Shown here in pieces: positions 1-7,396 of a stretch of 64,000 nucleotides of DNA. Source of the DNA: Paraburkholderia phenazinium (GTDB lineage: Bacteria > Pseudomonadota > Gammaproteobacteria > Burkholderiales > Burkholderiaceae). The translations under genes and the position numbers were made by a program. The notes beneath the pieces were generated by a model, which did no database searches, was not told where the DNA came from, and saw only the letters and a list, made by a program, of their open reading frames with translations. Numbering within the stretch: position 1 is the stretch's first letter; each line of letters opens with the position of its first letter. The stretch spans positions 124,001 through 188,000 of the forward strand of contig NZ_FSRU01000002.1 of assembly GCF_900142845.1 (NCBI RefSeq), read 5' to 3'.

Positions 1-1
1 G

Positions 2-778
2 ATTCCTGGTCTCGTGCTTAGCGAGGCGCGCTTTTCCGATTTCCGCTTCGAGCGTCACTACCATCTGGACTACCATGTCGCGCTGGTGACCGAGGGTGTC
101 CAGCGACAGGGATTCCATGGCGAAACGCTGCTGCTCACGCCGGGCAGCATCCAGTTGATGCCACCCGGTGAAGTGCATGACGGCATCAGCGCCGGGGACG
201 AGTCTTACACACTCAAGACGTTTCGCCTCTCACCTCAGTTACTGAATGGGCTCGGAGAGGAAATCTCGGGGCAGAATCGCTTCCCTGCACTGGGCGGGGC
301 GGTCCTTCAGGATTCGTCGCTTGCCGGTCATCTGTCCCGATTGCACGATGCACTACGGGCGGCTGCGCCGGGGTCCGAGCCCATGGAAGTACAGTCCGAA
401 TGGCTGACCTTACTTGACCGCTTGTTCGTCCAGACGCGTATGGTCAAGCCGCAGTTTGTCAAAGGCACACTCACGCCAGTACAGTGGCAGCGGGTCAGGG
501 AGTATTGCGACGTCCACCTGGCCGAAAAAATCACCCTCGAAGAGCTTGCCGCCCTTTGCAACCTCGAGCGCTTCCATTTCCTCAAGCTCTTCAAGCAAAC
601 AGTCGGCATGACTCCACATGCCTGGGTCGTACGCCTGAGACTGGAGCGCGCGTGCTCCTTGCTGAGTCACACCGACCGATGTCTGACGCAGGTGGCTCAG
701 GAAGTTGGCTTCTACGATCAGAGCCACTTCAATCGGGCGTTCCGGCAAGCCTTTGGTGTATCCCCGTCGAAGTATTGA
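2..778 (+). CDS. AraC-family transcriptional regulator (5' end probably outside window)
   Basis: This is a DNA-binding regulator with an N-terminal cupin-like sensor and a C-terminal AraC double helix-turn-helix. The sensor part shows HYHLDYHVALV and a LLTPGSIQLMPPGEVHDG segment typical of AraC effector domains. The last ~95 residues carry LEELAALCNLERFHFLKLFK and VAQEVGFYDQSHFNRAFRQA, the two HTH helices. The reading frame stays open to the left edge, and a GTG at 14 would give 254 residues. Relatives normally have some residues before this point, so the true start is probably upstream. It lies on the same strand as the catabolic genes from 1175 to 7396 and is the likely local activator. That role is inferred from position only; no operator was identified. 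Confidence 0.85.
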   Translation: MPGLVLSEARFSDFRFERHYHLDYHVALVTEGVQRQGFHGETLLLTPGSIQLMPPGEVHDGISAGDESYTLKTFRLSPQLLNGLGEEISGQNRFPALGGAVLQDSSLAGHLSRLHDALRAAAPGSEPMEVQSEWLTLLDRLFVQTRMVKPQFVKGTLTPVQWQRVREYCDVHLAEKITLEELAALCNLERFHFLKLFKQTVGMTPHAWVVRLRLERACSLLSHTDRCLTQVAQEVGFYDQSHFNRAFRQAFGVSPSKY

Positions 779-1174
779 CATTCCAGATCGCAGCAGACGA
801 ATGGGTCTGGCGCTTCGCCCTCCAGCACTCCCCAGCACTCCCCAGCACTCCCCAGCACTCCCCCAGCACTCAGACGAAGCTGGATCAACGCGGCATTAGC
901 GGCACGCAGCCATATCCCAGGCAGCTAGACCACGCGCGGCATCTCATCCGCGCCGAGCGCCCCGCCGACGATTGCACCCCACCATTGCAAACCCTCAATT
1001 TTTTACAAGCGGGACGGGCGTACGTCCTTTAACTTGGAGTCATGCGGGAAGTGAGTTGTCTTTCCGCGATTGTCGCGCTGCACGAGTCGCCTTTGGCCAA
1101 CAAGCCGCGTCTCACGTCAAATGCGTTTTGACGAAGCATGACCGCAATGAAGAATATGCATTGAGGAATACGAA
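779..1174. other. Gene-free interval between the regulator and the catabolic operon
   Basis: These 396 bases contain the decamer array and no convincing reading frame. They should hold the promoter of the operon that starts at 1175 and the operator of the AraC protein. I see no clear -35/-10 pair or inverted repeat. Confidence 0.5.
821..871. repeat. Tandem decamer repeat, about five copies
   Basis: The 10-base unit CCCAGCACTC is repeated perfectly from 831 to 860, with a near-copy before (821-830) and another after (862-871, set off by one extra C). It starts 42 bases after the stop of the AraC regulator gene. Such arrays change copy number by slippage. No coding or regulatory role can be read from it. 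Confidence 0.9.
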
Positions 1175-1807
1175 ATGACACAACGGACCTACTACAACAG
1201 CGACGAACTGACGATGCGCACGCTGGTACTCGACTGTTCGCCCGCAGACGACGGCAAGTTCCGTGTGACGCTGGCCGCGACCCTGTTCCACCCGCAAGGC
1301 GGAGGACAGCTCTCCGACCAGGGCAGTATTGCCGGCGTGAAGATCGGGCGCGTGATTCAGGAGGGTGATGAGGTTATTCACATCGCCGATCAGGAAGTCG
1401 CCGTCGGCGATGCGCTGATTGAAGTATCGCCCGGGATCCGCATGCTGCACGCACGACTCCACTCCGCCGGTCACCTAATTTCCGGAGTCGTGGAGCAGAT
1501 GGGTTGGTACGCGAGCAAAGGTCACCATTGGCCTGGTGAGGGACGAGTGGTTTTCGAGCCACGCGGTAACCCACAGCCGCTGACCGCCGAAGGCGTGGAG
1601 CAAACAGTAAATCAGCTCATTGCAGATGATGTGCCGCGCCATCTGGCCGAAAACGATGGCATGAGATCCGTATGCTTCGGTGACCTGCCGATGCATAGCT
1701 GTGGCGGCACTCACGTCAAGTCCGCTGGACAGGTCGGACGTATCAAGATCCTGAAGCTCAAAGAGAAGAAAGGCCAACTCTCGATCCAGTACGACCTCGA
1801 ATCCTGA
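1175..1807 (+). CDS. AlaX-type alanyl-tRNA editing hydrolase
   Basis: This 210-residue stand-alone editing-domain protein is homologous to the editing and C-Ala-proximal part of alanyl-tRNA synthetase. It is expected to deacylate wrongly charged tRNA, classically Ser- or Gly-tRNA(Ala), in the cytoplasm. Both metal-binding motifs are visible: HxxxH (His96 and His100) and CxxxH (Cys176 and His180). The glycine-rich FHPQGGGQLSDQG segment near residue 38 is also typical. The length fits AlaX rather than a full synthetase. It is the first gene of a catabolic operon and precedes a RidA protein and a PLP dehydratase. This suggests protection against an amino-acid substrate or intermediate that could be mischarged; that link is inference. 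Confidence 0.88.
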   Translation: MTQRTYYNSDELTMRTLVLDCSPADDGKFRVTLAATLFHPQGGGQLSDQGSIAGVKIGRVIQEGDEVIHIADQEVAVGDALIEVSPGIRMLHARLHSAGHLISGVVEQMGWYASKGHHWPGEGRVVFEPRGNPQPLTAEGVEQTVNQLIADDVPRHLAENDGMRSVCFGDLPMHSCGGTHVKSAGQVGRIKILKLKEKKGQLSIQYDLES

Positions 1808-1889
1808 ATGTTCCGTTTTCACTCGTGCCATGTGCCCGTGTACGTCGGGCGTCGTGCGTCGGCACGTACTTCACCCTTAAGGAGATTTC

Positions 1890-2357
1890 ATGAACCGCAT
1901 TGAACTGGATGCTCGTCTCGCAGAACTTGGCATCGAACTGCAACCGCCGAAGGCGGCGATCGCCAACTACGTACCCACCGTTCTGGCAGGTGGCTTTTTG
2001 CACATTTCTGGACAAGTCGCCTTCAAGGACGGCAAGCCGTTTGCGCTCGGCCAGGTCGGCCAGGAAATAAGTATCGAGCAAGCGAAGGAAGCAGCGCGGC
2101 TGAGCGGCATGGCGATTTTGTCGCAACTTCGTTCGCAACTGACGGACGACCTGAGCGTGATCCGCGTCTGCTCCGTGACAGGCTACGTGCACGCAGCCAC
2201 GGAATTCACGGAGCACCCGGAAGTCATCAACGGTGCCTCGGAGGTCCTCGTTGCAGTGCTGGGCGATAAGGGAAGGCACAGCCGCGCCGCAGTAGGCGTA
2301 TCGAGCCTGCCGTTTCGTTGCCCGGTTGAGGTCTCCGCTGTCATCCAGCTTGGCTAA
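1890..2357 (+). CDS. RidA/YjgF/YER057c-family enamine/imine deaminase
   Basis: This 155-residue protein belongs to the longer RidA subgroup, which hydrolyses reactive enamines/imines such as 2-aminoacrylate to ketoacids plus ammonia. Related members act as 2-aminomuconate deaminases in aminophenol pathways. Visible signatures are GFLHISGQVAF near residue 35, a VCSVTGYVHAATEF stretch, and the C-terminal RAAVGVSSLPFRCPVEV with the conserved Arg. An AAGGAG ribosome site at 1879-1884 sets the start. The stop overlaps the ATG of a small open frame at 2357. Its place before a PLP dehydratase fits a partner that clears the enamine product. The real substrate is unknown. Confidence 0.9.
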   Translation: MNRIELDARLAELGIELQPPKAAIANYVPTVLAGGFLHISGQVAFKDGKPFALGQVGQEISIEQAKEAARLSGMAILSQLRSQLTDDLSVIRVCSVTGYVHAATEFTEHPEVINGASEVLVAVLGDKGRHSRAAVGVSSLPFRCPVEVSAVIQLG

Positions 2358-2575
2358 TGTCATTCGCTCATAAGGCAAACGATCTAAACGCAAGCCTCGG
2401 GCTATCCGCCCGTTGGCTAGCGAATGGGTCTCCTTTTTCGATGAAAACCAACATCGCCCGGATGAACGACGACATGCGCAGATGCATTGGTGACGCCATG
2501 ACGTTGGAGCTGGGACCGATGTCGAGGTGTTTGTATCAAATGCCAACGCCTTTCACAGATGAAGTCCTGCTATGA
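2357..2575 (+). other. 72-codon open frame tiling the RidA-dehydratase gap (doubtful gene)
   Basis: The frame begins in a TAATG overlap with the RidA stop and ends in an ATGA overlap with the next start, exactly as a translationally coupled small gene would. Its third codon positions are far less G/C-rich than in neighbouring genes. The protein has no recognisable motif and starts MSFAHKANDLNASLGLSARW. It may be a coupled small protein, a leader that couples translation, or a decayed remnant. I cannot tell which from sequence alone. Confidence 0.3.
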
Positions 2576-3558
2576 CATTGCATATCGAAACACCGCTAAT
2601 CAACTCCCGAGCTCTCTCACTCAGGACGGGCAGAACAGTTCTCCTGAAACTTGAAGGCCTGCAACCGGGTGGCTCATTCAAGCTGCGGGGCGTTGGTTTC
2701 GCCTGCGAAGAACATAAGCACCGGGGAGCGCGGCGCTTCGTCACCGCGTCAGGAGGAAACGCCGGGTACGCGGTGGCCTACGCGGGCCGAGAGCTTGGAA
2801 TTCCGGTGACGGTCGTCGTGCCGCAGACGACATCTGAGCGAGCCCGTGCCCTCATTCGGGGCGAAGAAGCAGAGGTCATAGTTCACGGAGCGTCGTTCGG
2901 TGAATCCAATGACCACGCACTCTCGATTCTGCGCGATGGTGACGCGTACCTCCATGCGTTCGACGACCCTCTACTGTGGGAAGGTCACGCGACGATGGTC
3001 GAGGAGATCGCGCGGCAAACCGAACGCCCTGACCTGCTTGTTTGCTCGGTCGGCGGTGGCGGCCTGCTTGCAGGCGTCATTGAAGGACTGCGGCGAGTCG
3101 GCTGGAGCGATATCCCGGTATTGGCAGTCGAGACCGCTGGCGCCAATTCGTACGACCAGGCACTCAAGGCTGGGGAGCCGGTCACTCTCCCGAAAATCCA
3201 ATCCGTGGCCACGTCCCTTGGTGCCAACAAGGTAACTGCCCGCATCGTGACGCTTGCCAAGGAACATCAGATCCGAAACTGCCTGGTGACTGACGCTGAA
3301 GCGATTCAAGGCAGCGTGACCCTGCTCGAAGAGCATCGCCTTCTGAGCGAGCCGGCCTGCGGTGCATCGGTAGCGGCACTCGCCCGGGTTCCGGAGTATT
3401 TCCCTGACGCTCAGCGCATCGTAGTCATTGCTTGCGGTGGTGTAGGCACAACGAGTCAGCAGTTGCTGGAGTGGTCCGATTTCTACCGGCTGGAATGCGA
3501 CCCGCTCACCGCCAGTCATTCCGATGAAGTGAACTCGCTCGAGAGTCAGCAATCATGA
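2572..3558 (+). CDS. PLP-dependent serine/threonine dehydratase-like enzyme (fold type II)
   Basis: This 328-residue cytoplasmic enzyme belongs to the tryptophan-synthase-beta/threonine-dehydratase family. It is expected to eliminate the beta-hydroxyl (or another beta leaving group) from an amino acid, giving an enamine that tautomerises and hydrolyses to a 2-ketoacid. The PLP lysine is Lys37 in QPGGSFKLRG. The phosphate-binding glycine loop is VGGGGLLAG near residue 163, and the substrate-side ASGGNAGYA is near residue 62. No ACT regulatory domain follows, so this is the catabolic short form. It starts 4 bases inside the preceding small frame and overlaps the hydratase gene by 4 bases. With RidA and the meta-pathway trio, it may generate a five-carbon dienamine; the true substrate is not shown. 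Confidence 0.87.
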   Translation: MTLHIETPLINSRALSLRTGRTVLLKLEGLQPGGSFKLRGVGFACEEHKHRGARRFVTASGGNAGYAVAYAGRELGIPVTVVVPQTTSERARALIRGEEAEVIVHGASFGESNDHALSILRDGDAYLHAFDDPLLWEGHATMVEEIARQTERPDLLVCSVGGGGLLAGVIEGLRRVGWSDIPVLAVETAGANSYDQALKAGEPVTLPKIQSVATSLGANKVTARIVTLAKEHQIRNCLVTDAEAIQGSVTLLEEHRLLSEPACGASVAALARVPEYFPDAQRIVVIACGGVGTTSQQLLEWSDFYRLECDPLTASHSDEVNSLESQQS

Positions 3559-4337
3559 ACGACATTCTTATCAGTTCGCTTGGCGACGAGCTGTACGCCG
3601 CAGTTAAAGACTGTCGCGTGCTCGACCCGCTCACCAGTCGCTACGCCGATCTGACGATCGAAGACGCGTACCGCATCCAGCAACGCCTGAACGCCCGCCG
3701 CATCGAAGCGGGAGAACGCGTCATCGGCAAGAAGATCGGTGTGACGTCGCAGGTCGTGATGAACATGCTCGGGGTTTATCAGCCTGATTTCGGCATGCTC
3801 ACCGACGTGATGCTTTATGAGGAGGGCGACTCGATTCCGGCCGCCTCCCTGATCCAGCCCAAGGCAGAGGGAGAAATCGCCTTTGTGCTCAAGCACGATC
3901 TGCAGGGACCCGGCGTGACTGCAGAGGATGTCCTCGCCGCAACCGGTGGCGTGATGGCCTGCTTTGAGATCGTCGACTCGCGCATCCGCGACTGGAAAAT
4001 CCGCATCGAAGACACGGTGGCCGACAACGCATCGTGCGGCGTGTTCGTGCTTGGCCAACGCGTTGTCGATCCGCGCGAGGTCGACCTGGTCGGATGCGCG
4101 ATGAAACTGGAGAAGAATGGCGAGGTGGTGACCACCGGCTCAGGCGCTGCTGCGCTTGGGAACCCGCTCGAAGCGGTTGCGTGGTTGGCCAACACGTTGG
4201 GCCAACTGAACGAGTCATTGAAGGCAGGTGAAGTGGTGCTGTCTGGCTCATTGGCGGCGATGGTTCCAGTCGCAGCCGGCGACAACCTCAATGTTTCTAT
4301 TGACGGCATCGGCAGTTGCTCGGTGCGGTTCATTTGA
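3555..4337 (+). CDS. mhpD: 2-keto-4-pentenoate (2-hydroxypenta-2,4-dienoate) hydratase
   Basis: This 260-residue member of the MhpD/DmpE/BphH family adds water to 2-hydroxypenta-2,4-dienoate, giving 4-hydroxy-2-oxovalerate. Characteristic segments are GKKIGVTSQVVMNMLGVYQP (residues 58-77), LIQPKAEGEIAF with metal-binding acids, FEIVDSRIRDWKI, and AWLANTLG near residue 216. AWLANTLG argues for hydratase over the homologous 4-oxalocrotonate decarboxylase. The start overlaps the dehydratase stop by four bases (ATGA), so the two are translationally coupled. It directly precedes the acetaldehyde dehydrogenase and aldolase genes, the canonical order. Confidence 0.92.
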   Translation: MNDILISSLGDELYAAVKDCRVLDPLTSRYADLTIEDAYRIQQRLNARRIEAGERVIGKKIGVTSQVVMNMLGVYQPDFGMLTDVMLYEEGDSIPAASLIQPKAEGEIAFVLKHDLQGPGVTAEDVLAATGGVMACFEIVDSRIRDWKIRIEDTVADNASCGVFVLGQRVVDPREVDLVGCAMKLEKNGEVVTTGSGAAALGNPLEAVAWLANTLGQLNESLKAGEVVLSGSLAAMVPVAAGDNLNVSIDGIGSCSVRFI

Positions 4338-4365
4338 TCGATTCGTTTGATCCAAAGGAGGAGAC

Positions 4366-5283
4366 ATGGCAAAGAACAAGGTGAAGTGCGCATTGATCGG
4401 ACCGGGCAACATCGGCACGGACCTGTTGGCAAAGCTGCAACGCAGTGAAGTGCTGGAACCCGTGTGGATGGTAGGTATCGACCCCGAGTCTGACGGCCTT
4501 AAGAAGGCGCGGGAGCTGGGACTGAAGACCACGTCCGAAGGCGTAGACGGCTTGCTGCCGCACGTGAAAGCCGACGGCATCCAGATCGCCTTCGATGCGA
4601 CTAGCGCGTACGTGCATGCGGAAAACTCGCGCAAGCTCAATGAACTGGGTGTGATGATGATTGATCTCACGCCGGCGGCGATCGGCCCGTACTGCGTGCC
4701 GCCCGTGAACCTGAAGCAACACGTCGGCAAAGGTGAGATGAATGTCAACATGGTCACTTGCGGCGGCCAGGCAACGATCCCCATGGTGTATGCAGTGTCG
4801 CGAGTGCAGCCCGTACGGTATGCCGAAATCGTCGCAACGGTGTCCAGCCGATCGGCCGGCCCAGGAACGCGCAAGAACATCGACGAATTCACGCGCACGA
4901 CAGCCGGAGCAATCTCGAAGGTCGGAGGAGCGAAGGAAGGTAAGGCGATCATCATCATCAACCCCGCCGATCCGCCACTCATGATGCGCGACACCGTGCA
5001 TTGTTTGTTAGAAAGCACGCCCGATGCCGCCGCGATCGAGAAGTCGGTACACGAAATGATCGAGCAGGTACGCAAGTACGTGCCCGGCTACAGACTCGTC
5101 AATGGCCCAGTGTTCGACGGTGATCGGGTCTCGATCTACCTGGAGGTCGAAGGCCTCGGCGACTATCTGCCTAAGTATGCCGGCAACCTGGACATCATGA
5201 CGGCGGCCGCCGCACGCACCGCCGAGATGTTCGCCGAGGAAATTCTGAGCGGCTCGCTCAAGCTCGAACCCGTCGCTCACTAG
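4366..5283 (+). CDS. mhpF: Acetaldehyde dehydrogenase (acylating)
   Basis: This 305-residue enzyme oxidises acetaldehyde with CoA and NAD+ to acetyl-CoA. In this family (DmpF, BphJ, MhpF) it forms a channelling complex with the aldolase encoded next. The NAD-binding GPGNIGTDL sits at residues 12-20. The catalytic Cys is Cys132 in [11 protein letters not shown], the expected position. The length is normal. A strong AAAGGAGGAG ribosome site lies upstream of the ATG. Only 13 bases separate it from the aldolase gene, consistent with stoichiometric expression. Confidence 0.95.
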
Positions 5284-5296
5284 GGAGGAATCAGAC

Positions 5297-6352
5297 ATGA
5301 ACTTCAAAGGCAAGACGATCGTCGTGCATGACATGACGCTGCGCGACGGAATGCACCCGAAACGTCATCAGATGACACTGGACCAGATGAAGGTGATTGC
5401 ACAGGGTCTGGACGAAGCAGGCGTGCCGCTGATCGAAGTCACGCACGGCGATGGACTGGGCGGCAGTTCCGTGAACTATGGCTTTCCCGCTCACACGGAC
5501 GAGGAATACCTCTCCACCGTCATCCCTCTCATGAAGCAGGCGCGCGTCTCGGCGCTGCTGATTCCGGGCATTGGCACGGTGGACCATCTGAAAATGGCAC
5601 ACGAGCTTGGCGTGAACACGATCCGCGTGGCCACACACTGCACGGAGGCCGACGTCTCGGAACAGCACATCACGCTCGCGCGCAAGCTCGATATGGATGC
5701 CGCCGGCTTTCTGATGATGGCGCACATGAATACGCCCGAAGGTCTCGTGAAGCAGGCCAGGCTGATGGAAAGCTACGGTGCGAACTGTGTCTACGTGACT
5801 GACTCCGCCGGGTACATGCTTCCCGAGGACGTACGGGCCCGTCTCTCCGCTGTCCGTGCGGCACTGAAACCGGAGACCGAACTTGGTTTTCATGGTCACC
5901 ACAACCTAGCAATGGGGGTCGCGAACTCCATCGGTGCCATCGAGGTTGGCGCGACCCGGGTCGATGCAGCCGCCGCGGGTTTGGGCGCCGGTGCCGGTAA
6001 CACGCCGATGGAAGTGCTCGTCGCGGTGTGTGATCGCATGGGCATTCAGACGGGCGTCGATGTCTGGAAGATTCAGGACGTGGCCGAGGACCTGGTCGTA
6101 CCGATTATGGATTTCCCGATCCGCGTTGATCGCGATGCGCTCACACTCGGTTACGCAGGCGTGTACGGTTCCTTCCTCCTTTTTGCAAAGCGCGCAGGAC
6201 AAAAGTACGGCGTACCGGCTCGTGACATCCTGGTCGAACTGGGGCGCCGTGGCATGGTGGGCGGCCAGGAGGACATGATCGAGGACACCGCTCTCACCCT
6301 GGCCAAGGCGCGAAATCTGGAACCGGCCGCTGCGGACCCGCGTGCGGCGTGA
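5297..6352 (+). CDS. mhpE: 4-hydroxy-2-oxovalerate aldolase
   Basis: This 351-residue DRE-TIM aldolase (DmpG/BphI/MhpE) splits 4-hydroxy-2-oxovalerate into pyruvate and acetaldehyde. The acetaldehyde is passed to the partner dehydrogenase. The catalytic TLRDG places Arg16 and Asp17, with His20 close by. The divalent-metal histidines are in [11 protein letters not shown] near residue 200. The C-terminal tunnel/communication domain is present. The carbon ends in pyruvate plus acetyl-CoA, so the operon feeds central metabolism. An AGGGAGGA site precedes the start. Confidence 0.95.
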
Positions 6353-6475
6353 GTTCAGCTTCTAGGGCGATCGCGGTCTTCACTGCGCACGTTTGTTTCG
6401 GTGGGTGGACACGGTATTTGCCAGACGCGGCCTTCGACAGCACGTCGCTTTGTTGGGCTTGGAGGAAGAGATTCG

Positions 6476-7396
6476 ATGTGTTTGAGCAGATGTTTGGATA
6501 TCCACCCGGAAGTCGCTGCGGCATTAGGCGCAGGGCGACCCGTTGTGGCACTGGAGTCGTCGATCATCTCGCATGGCGCCTCCTGGCCGGGGAACGCTGA
6601 AACAGCGCTTGCGCTCGAAGCCGAAGTCCGCGCCCACGGCGCGATACCCGCCACCTGCGCGATTCTGGACGGCCGTATCAAGGTCGGGCTGACGCGTGAC
6701 GAGATTGAGCGCCTCGGTCGCAGCGGCCACGATGCGGCTAAGGTCAGCCGGCGCGATATTCCGATTCTTGTTGCATGTGGCGGCGATGGCGCAACGACGA
6801 TCTCGGCGACGATGATCATCGCAGACCTAGTGAAGATTCGTGTGTTTGCTGCCGGCGGTCTCGGCGGTGTGCATCGGGGCGCGCAGGAGAGCTTCGACAT
6901 CTCGGCTGATCTGCAGGAACTCGCCCGCACGCCGGTGGCATTGGTGTGCGCCGGCATCAAGTCGATCCTCGACACTCAGTTAACCTTAGAATACCTGGAG
7001 ACGCACGGCGTACCAGTGATCGGCTACTGCACCGACAGCCTACCCGGATTCTTTACTCTCGATAGCGGGTTCGGTGTCGATGTGCGCCTCGACGATCCTC
7101 ACCGGATAGCTCGTGTCATGAAAGCCAACTGGGACCTAGGCCTGAACAACGGCCTTGTTGTTGCCAATCCGATTCCCCAGCCATTCGCGTTGCCACGTGA
7201 GGTCATTGATCTCGCGATTGAACAAGCACTGGCGGAAGCGGATGCGGAAGGTATGGTCGGCAAAGGCGTGACACCGTTCCTTATTTCCCGTGTGAATGCA
7301 TTGACTGGCGGGGCGAGCGCGGGAGGCAGTGTTCAGATCGGTCTCAACAACGCCAGGCTTGCAGCCGCGATAGCGGTCGCTTATGCGTCGCTTTAG
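6476..7396 (+). CDS. psuG: Pseudouridine-5'-phosphate glycosidase family protein
   Basis: This 306-residue PsuG-family C-glycosidase would reversibly cleave the C-C bond of pseudouridine 5'-phosphate to uracil and ribose 5-phosphate. All three residues known to matter in E. coli PsuG can be placed: Glu27 in VALESSIISHG, Asp in DISADLQEL, and the Schiff-base Lys in CAGIKSILD. NGLVVANPIPQP and GVTPFLISRVN are also family hallmarks. I chose the ATG at 6476 because GGAGGAAG lies at 6461-6468; an in-frame GTG at 6401 has no such site. No PsuK kinase gene lies next to it, although the two are usually adjacent. Its role in this operon is unexplained. Confidence 0.88.
   Translation: MCLSRCLDIHPEVAAALGAGRPVVALESSIISHGASWPGNAETALALEAEVRAHGAIPATCAILDGRIKVGLTRDEIERLGRSGHDAAKVSRRDIPILVACGGDGATTISATMIIADLVKIRVFAAGGLGGVHRGAQESFDISADLQELARTPVALVCAGIKSILDTQLTLEYLETHGVPVIGYCTDSLPGFFTLDSGFGVDVRLDDPHRIARVMKANWDLGLNNGLVVANPIPQPFALPREVIDLAIEQALAEADAEGMVGKGVTPFLISRVNALTGGASAGGSVQIGLNNARLAAAIAVAYASL

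Follow-up and report, generated by a model that had tools for sequence, protein, structure and literature searches.

An AraC-linked operon of Paraburkholderia as a candidate pathway for an unsaturated beta-hydroxy-alpha-amino acid

What feeds the enzymes of the lower meta-cleavage pathway where they are encoded away from any ring-cleavage dioxygenase? The question is raised by a stretch of Paraburkholderia phenazinium DNA (assembly GCF_900142845.1, contig NZ_FSRU01000002.1, positions 124,001 to 188,000 of the forward strand; all 64,000 nucleotides are referred to below as the window). In its first part, alaX, rid and a gene for a pyridoxal phosphate (PLP) dehydratase precede dmpE, dmpF, dmpG and psuG. 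An earlier note on this DNA had proposed that the dehydratase and the Rid protein convert a five-carbon beta-hydroxy amino acid, such as 2-amino-3-hydroxypent-4-enoate, into the substrate of the dmpEFG-encoded trio, and that AlaX protects against mischarging by the same analogue. Our own preference, held with moderate confidence, is for a reading in which an AraC-controlled operon detoxifies and eats a C5 unsaturated beta-hydroxy-alpha-amino acid, an analogue of threonine or serine, via 2-hydroxypenta-2,4-dienoate. The main new evidence, independent of the argument of the earlier note, is a putative operator shared with genes that cleave or dehydrate amino acids of this class.

The operon and its conservation

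All seven open reading frames (ORFs) from alaX to psuG are open, run in one direction (+ strand) and follow the order that the earlier note had given, namely, AlaX, RidA, dehydratase, MhpD, MhpF, MhpE and PsuG. Its account of the spacing holds for the 4-base overlap between the dehydratase gene and dmpE but not for the short gaps claimed elsewhere, given that 82 bases separate alaX from rid and 214 bases separate rid from the dehydratase gene. The families were named with Pfam and NCBIfam profiles (for PsuG, only the former gave a name), and five of the seven proteins also have sequence matches in the PDB. The trio is genuine, each protein scoring above its NCBIfam equivalog cut-off: DmpE (3555..4337), a 2-oxopent-4-enoate hydratase that aligns with MhpD (TIGR03220, 441 bits against 408.8); DmpF (4366..5283), an acylating acetaldehyde dehydrogenase (TIGR03215, 479 bits against 282); and DmpG (5297..6352), a 4-hydroxy-2-oxovalerate aldolase (TIGR03217, 564 bits against 286).

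The dehydratase (2572..3558) is a PLP-dependent serine/threonine enzyme and belongs to the SDS type known from animals; it is closest among PDB sequences to the serine dehydratase 1pwe (E=1.6e-74). Its SFK and VGGGGL motifs align with those of 1pwe and are, presumably, the PLP lysine and the glycine-rich phosphate loop; a relative with 88% identity carries the record name phenylserine dehydratase. The product of rid (1890..2357) matches the PDB sequences 3d01, PA0814, 2otm and ACIAD3089, and its HSRAAVG is aligned with HARAAVG of PA0814 and 3d01, so that, in our own reading, the Arg of this motif would be the equivalent of RidA Arg-105. Two of these, PA0814 and ACIAD3089, belong to Rid1, a group whose members show deaminase activity and act on enamines (PMC5619798). 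The earlier note was right about the Rid family, but the nearest characterised relatives are Rid1 and not the archetypal RidA. AlaX (1175..1807; 210 amino acids (aa)) is a divergent member of its family, with 71 of 300 bits against NCBIfam AlaXM, below the cut-off; the tRNA_SAD profile PF07973 is over its cut-off, the HxxxH and CxxxH metal-site motifs are present and the protein aligns to 2e1b. By family, it would act as a trans-editing enzyme.

The unit reaches past the window edge, where the regulator, an exporter and a reductase were outside the view of the earlier note. The edge cuts the gene of an AraC-family regulator (1..778, + strand; cupin sensor and helix-turn-helix, Pfam AraC_binding and HTH_18), whose likely ATG lies 35 bases before the first base of the window. 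Upstream, on the same strand, are genes for a DMT-type exporter and an MDR-type reductase. The latter contains the ADH_N and ADH_zinc_N domains and has PIG3 quinone reductase, under its cut-off, as the best NCBIfam model; we type it as a predicted MDR reductase of the quinone/enone type.

The arrangement recurs. In a genus sample of 144 genomes, the window's own included, the dehydratase has a match with E<=1e-100 in 31 and one with >80% identity in six, including this one, and in all six the orthologues of DmpE and PsuG are encoded next to it. A wider search returned 80 loci, among them one of Caballeronia (L013) that brings the total to seven; the other order-keeping match of that search, from Paraburkholderia sediminicola (L014), repeats one of the six and is not counted anew. 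The order AraC-(AlaX)-Rid-dehydratase-DmpE-DmpF-DmpG-PsuG is kept in all seven, with AraC and PsuG always present and a reductase gene always upstream; AlaX is found in five and the DMT exporter in two. The gene order claimed earlier is therefore conserved in seven genomes, but not the constancy of AlaX, which we rejected as a defining part of the operon. The 4-base overlap of the dehydratase gene and dmpE is present in all loci for which ORFs were read (L009, L014, L129 and L130). In pairwise comparison with the window copy, every gene has a ratio of nonsynonymous to synonymous substitution rates (dN/dS) of 0.03-0.25; for L129 and L130, the most distant of the loci, dS is close to 1 or higher. 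The L129 reductase matches as two pieces in different frames, of which one was used, and is probably frameshifted. Because the order recurs in seven genomes and these ratios are low in every gene, the arrangement goes beyond chance; judged by them, the operon is real and every gene is under purifying selection.

Two further loci carry parts of the set. An eighth genome has a decayed remnant (L208, G043:C24:86000-100635) with an open rid, a shortened dehydratase gene and dmpE and a psuG fragment, in which no intact dmpF, dmpG or alaX was seen. A conjugative-type plasmid of Cupriavidus oxalaticus (L212) encodes AraC-AlaX-Rid, with an AlaX 88% identical to that of the window, followed by a transposase gene, so that a fragment of the operon sits on a mobile plasmid. 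The larger dehydratase family was rejected as a guide, the relatives at 50-63% having varied neighbours.

A putative operator and its targets in the genus

Alignment of the intergenic regions between the AraC gene and the next gene in the seven loci yields a conserved block (994..1069, + strand), and within it TCAATTTTTTACAAG (995..1009, + strand), which we propose as the AraC site of the alaX-rid-dehydratase-dmpEFG-psuG unit. This operator stands before both alaX and the reductase gene, the second copy lying outside the window, at L009:7549-7563 and 111 bases ahead of the probable ATG of the reductase gene, and its 14-base core occurs nowhere else in the 8.5-Mb genome. On the operon strand, the core TTTTTACAAG is found twice in each of the seven intact loci, once before the reductase gene and once before alaX or rid; the remnant L208 and the plasmid L212 also have two copies each, which makes nine loci. 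It is present once each in L205, L206, L207 and L067, and as a two-mismatch variant in L204. Altogether, 22 exact copies compare with 0.15 expected from base composition (17 loci, 331 kb), and the motif is probably the binding site of the AraC regulator. A longer shared operator was considered and rejected, since what the aldolase loci have in common with the operon goes no further than TTTTTACAAG and a CAAT in front of it; a pair of CAWGCGGGA elements spaced by 35 bases is confined to the operon lineage, with imperfect versions in L208 and L212. In the same intergenic region, a sigma-70 scan of 779-1180 gave one weak promoter-like site, which was not used, and tandem CCCCAGCACTC-like repeats occupy 820-875, between araC and the operator, being fewer or absent in relatives.

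Across the genus, the 14-mer CAATTTTTTACAAG occurs at 42 sites in 39 of the 144 genomes, against 2 sites for the pattern read backwards. Of these genomes, 36 have a single site and three have two; in the present genome there are two, both in the cluster. The neighbouring genes were examined for all 42 sites. Threonine-aldolase-type genes follow at 25 sites (a first type accounts for 15, a second for the other 10), dehydratases of the SDS type and of the same family as the operon dehydratase at six, and alaX at one, whereas nine sites lie in the cluster or its remnants (eight in the operon or the G043 remnant, one before a reductase-gene fragment in G120). Loci with such sites include L231, L232, L234 and L249. 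Most of these assignments come from tblastn searches in which the queries were the operon proteins and the L206 aldolase, which the second type matches at no more than 31-34%. A family check on one gene of each type (L234 and L232, respectively) placed both in PF01212, while against the aldolase models of NCBIfam both score under the cut-offs; for L234, there are also matches to structures of L-threonine aldolase, the top one being 1v72, which we take to be a phenylserine aldolase.

An AraC homologue is encoded in 33 of the 38 loci searched and in all four other stretches. In a tree of 39 such sequences, from which rows with <=200 aligned residues and duplicate loci were dropped, the regulators group by target type and the operon copies form one clade (support 0.89), several deeper nodes being weakly supported. 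We infer that this regulator family governs the breakdown of beta-hydroxy-alpha-amino acids, in which case the substrate of the operon would belong to that class.

The same distribution lends itself to the likeliest of the alternatives, ordinary catabolism of threonine or serine, under which the dehydratase and the Rid protein would make 2-oxobutyrate from threonine and dmpEFG-psuG would be co-transcribed for unrelated reasons. At 31 of the 42 sites, the next gene is indeed a plain threonine-aldolase-type or dehydratase gene, and the operon dehydratase is of the general SDS type. Yet dmpEFG and psuG are kept in all seven loci under purifying selection, and the breakdown of threonine or serine needs neither DmpE nor DmpG; we consider this explanation unlikely.

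The DmpEFG trio and ring-cleavage dioxygenases

The three enzymes seem to have been taken over from ring-cleavage pathways and to be fed by another source here, because PF00903 matches stand beside other DmpE genes of the genus but none of those listed is near the operon copies. When the best-ranking DmpE places of the genus are compared, with the G043 remnant set aside, each of the ten best-matching ones outside the operon (8 genomes, 66-70% identity) has a PF00903 match 0.8-5.1 kb away, in an open frame of 305-441 aa, which is what meta-cleavage operons would lead one to expect. PF00903 is a broad family; by size and place, these proteins would be extradiol dioxygenases. In the six operon genomes, neither PF00903 nor PF02900 has a match within 70 kb of the operon among the matches listed (205 for PF00903 in total, the weakest being outside those listed). 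The view of the earlier note that no ring-cleavage dioxygenase accompanies the trio holds within this scope, and a dioxygenase hidden nearby was rejected on the same searches. The nearest listed matches, 77, 84 and 107 kb off in G009, G081 and G018, respectively, all fall in short open frames (129-141 aa); for the remaining three genomes, the listed matches are farther off or on other contigs.

Could the trio then be an orphan lower meta-pathway, fed by a dioxygenase from elsewhere in the genome, with the dehydratase part serving a separate function? PF00903 and PF02900 matches do occur elsewhere in all six operon genomes, and in the present genome a LigB-family match lies about 2.3 kb from the gene of another DmpE-like hydratase, of 45% identity (G000:C1:121939-125860, in L131), in a region that looks like an ordinary ring-cleavage locus. 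However, the dehydratase gene and dmpE overlap by 4 bases in L009, L014, L129 and L130, and PF00903 is within 6 kb of all ten other DmpE places but, among the matches listed, within 70 kb of none of the six operons, making an orphan trio very improbable.

A possible pathway and its nearest known systems

Beta-dehydration of 2-amino-3-hydroxypent-4-enoate (vinylserine) gives 2-aminopenta-2,4-dienoate, and hydrolysis of the latter gives 2-oxopent-4-enoate, the substrate of DmpE; as chemistry, the proposal of the earlier note is therefore sound. In the reading that we prefer, the regulator would sense the analogue or a relative of it and switch on two units, reductase(-exporter)-araC and alaX-rid-dehydratase-dmpEFG-psuG. 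The PLP dehydratase would take off the beta-hydroxyl, and the Rid protein would hydrolyse the reactive enamine or imine to the 2-oxo acid. With a vinyl side chain, this acid would directly be 2-oxopent-4-enoate/2-hydroxypenta-2,4-dienoate; with an ethynyl side chain, the product would be an allenyl or alkynyl oxo acid, which the MDR enzyme would have to reduce to 2-hydroxypenta-2,4-dienoate before the next step. The ethynyl route is considered because the reductase shares the operator, and conjugate reduction is the sort of reaction that some MDR enzymes perform. DmpE would then hydrate the dienoate to 4-hydroxy-2-oxopentanoate, DmpG would split this into pyruvate and acetaldehyde, and DmpF would convert the latter to acetyl-CoA, all in the presumed direction of breakdown; AlaX and, where present, the DMT exporter would limit misincorporation. 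A saturated substrate, 2-amino-3,4-dihydroxypentanoate, dehydrated straight to the DmpG substrate 4-hydroxy-2-oxopentanoate with DmpE acting on a side product, would use the same enzymes and established family chemistry but leaves no main task for the conserved DmpE and reductase, and we give it hardly any weight.

The substrate proposal of the earlier note thus gains support for the class of beta-hydroxy amino acids, through the shared operator, and the chemistry of Rid and DmpEFG fits it. Of two candidate substrates, vinylserine would fit the scheme directly, and beta-ethynylserine would fit it if the reductase takes part. Our literature search, with most subscription papers outside it, found no vinylserine as a natural product; beta-ethynylserine, the acetylenic C5 analogue, is a documented natural toxin. 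A bolder and rather doubtful version is resistance by digestion, directed at beta-ethynylserine or a close homologue as an acetylenic antimetabolite of threonine from soil fungi and streptomycetes: the dehydratase and Rid, followed by the MDR reductase, would yield 2-hydroxypenta-2,4-dienoate for DmpEFG, with AlaX clearing mischarged tRNA and PsuG perhaps undoing a C-riboside of a reactive intermediate. If the preferred reading is true, soil bacteria could feed on a toxin aimed at translation, and three fields that seldom meet would be joined: aromatic degradation, the enamine chemistry of PLP and Rid enzymes, and tRNA quality control. The operator, with its 42 exact sites in 39 of 144 genomes, offers a sharp regulon for finding the inducer.

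The AlaX relatives are rare, and elsewhere they have partners of the same kinds, which speaks for the reading that we prefer. At E<=1e-30, they are found in 8 of the 144 genus genomes; at 1e-40, in samples of 399 genomes from the order and 369 from the class, the counts are 3 and 2, respectively (the present genome is part of every count). Among the eight (here and in the loci that follow, some gene families were assigned by eye), four are in the operon, one is with a permease, a DMT exporter and a dehydratase (L204, AraC-AlaX-permease-DMT-dehydratase), two follow a threonine aldolase (L206 and L207, AraC-aldolase-AlaX) and one is with AraC and the operator. In gamma-proteobacterial loci, a YheO-like PAS regulator (profile match in L065) replaces AraC: PAS regulator-Rid-dehydratase-AlaX in L065, PAS regulator-dehydratase-DMT-AlaX in L035 and, in a module without AlaX, PAS regulator-Rid-dehydratase-DMT in L010. 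In six plasmid records, the annotation of which is incomplete, no annotated dehydratase or Rid gene lies within 6 kb of AlaX, which also counted against AlaX as the defining part; a plasmid of Acinetobacter johnsonii (L219, 3420-5710) carries LysR regulator-AlaX-LysE-type exporter, another pairing of a deacylase with an exporter. Published AlaX enzymes act on Ser- and Gly-tRNA(Ala), whereas the threonine analogues 4-fluorothreonine and beta-hydroxynorvaline are charged by threonyl-tRNA synthetase. Given this difference and the absence of AlaX from two of the seven operons, protection by AlaX against a mischarged analogue is no more than plausible.

For psuG (6476..7396, + strand), the longest ORF starts at 6401 and overlaps dmpG in L014 and L129. 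The ATG at 6476, behind a purine-rich stretch, is the likely start; in five of six relatives, homology starts at residues 18-22 of the longer frame, and in L013 it starts at residue 6. The protein belongs to the PsuG type of C-glycosidases (Indigoidine_A, 397 bits; 4gij, E=8e-110). It forms a lineage apart from the other PsuG proteins of the genus (~55% identity), with 33 lineage-specific residue changes; the residues taken to be catalytic are kept, and the pattern points to no particular substrate. A second PsuG, at 55-56% identity, is encoded in G009, G018 and G081, and no dmp gene was seen within 1.5 kb of five other-lineage copies of other genomes.

Several observations weigh against the pathway that we favour. 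PsuG has no place in the scheme. The frameshifted-looking reductase of L129 and the two operons without AlaX indicate that neither protein is indispensable. The inducer could be plain threonine or serine, the same regulator family being paired with simple aldolases and dehydratases. The gamma-proteobacterial loci with a dehydratase module (L010, L035 and L065) contain no TTTTTACAAG, the remaining one of the 42 sites (G074; L250/L268) has no recognisable gene of these types beside it, and G043 keeps decayed remnants only.

In agreement with the earlier note, our search of the literature, from which most subscription papers were absent, found no described pathway with this gene set; nor, within the same scope, did it find an AraC-threonine aldolase regulon in Burkholderia. 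Five known systems share parts of it. The closest described pairing is FthB/FthC, which protects Streptomyces cattleya as a producer of 4-fluorothreonine (McMurry and Chang 2017, as cited in PMC7162832 and PMC11295145) and likewise combines a free-standing aminoacyl-tRNA deacylase with an amino-acid exporter against a toxic beta-hydroxy amino acid (PMC7162832). FthB, however, is ProXp-ST1-related (PMC11295145), whereas the deacylase of the operon is of the AlaX type, and theirs is a producer system whereas the operon appears to be catabolic. An AlaX-like gene on the S. cattleya megaplasmid pSCAT (L220, 31% identity) has a LysE-type-looking exporter ORF about 1.6 kb upstream; it was rejected as FthB, no fluorothreonine transaldolase or DMT exporter being recognised in the ORFs within 8 kb.

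Pseudouridine-5'-phosphate glycosidase PsuG is alike in sequence, and the Lys of AGIKSILD, which we take to be its catalytic lysine, is kept; the operon copy differs in its separate lineage and in that no kinase was recognised by eye beside it in the ORF lists. The SDS-type serine/threonine and phenylserine dehydratases that work with RidA perform the same dehydration to an enamine followed by hydrolysis, but in the operon the oxo acid appears to be passed on to the hydratase-aldolase-dehydrogenase trio. The meta-cleavage lower pathway (mhpDFE/dmpEFG, xylJQK) has the same three enzymes, above family cut-offs and in the same order of hydratase, dehydrogenase and aldolase; in the operon, AraC, AlaX, Rid and a PLP dehydratase stand upstream, and no extradiol dioxygenase lies near the operon among the matches listed. 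Finally, the AraC-threonine aldolase and AraC-dehydratase pairs of the genus share the regulator family and the operator core with the operon, but whereas their targets are single enzymes, here the regulator faces a full operon.

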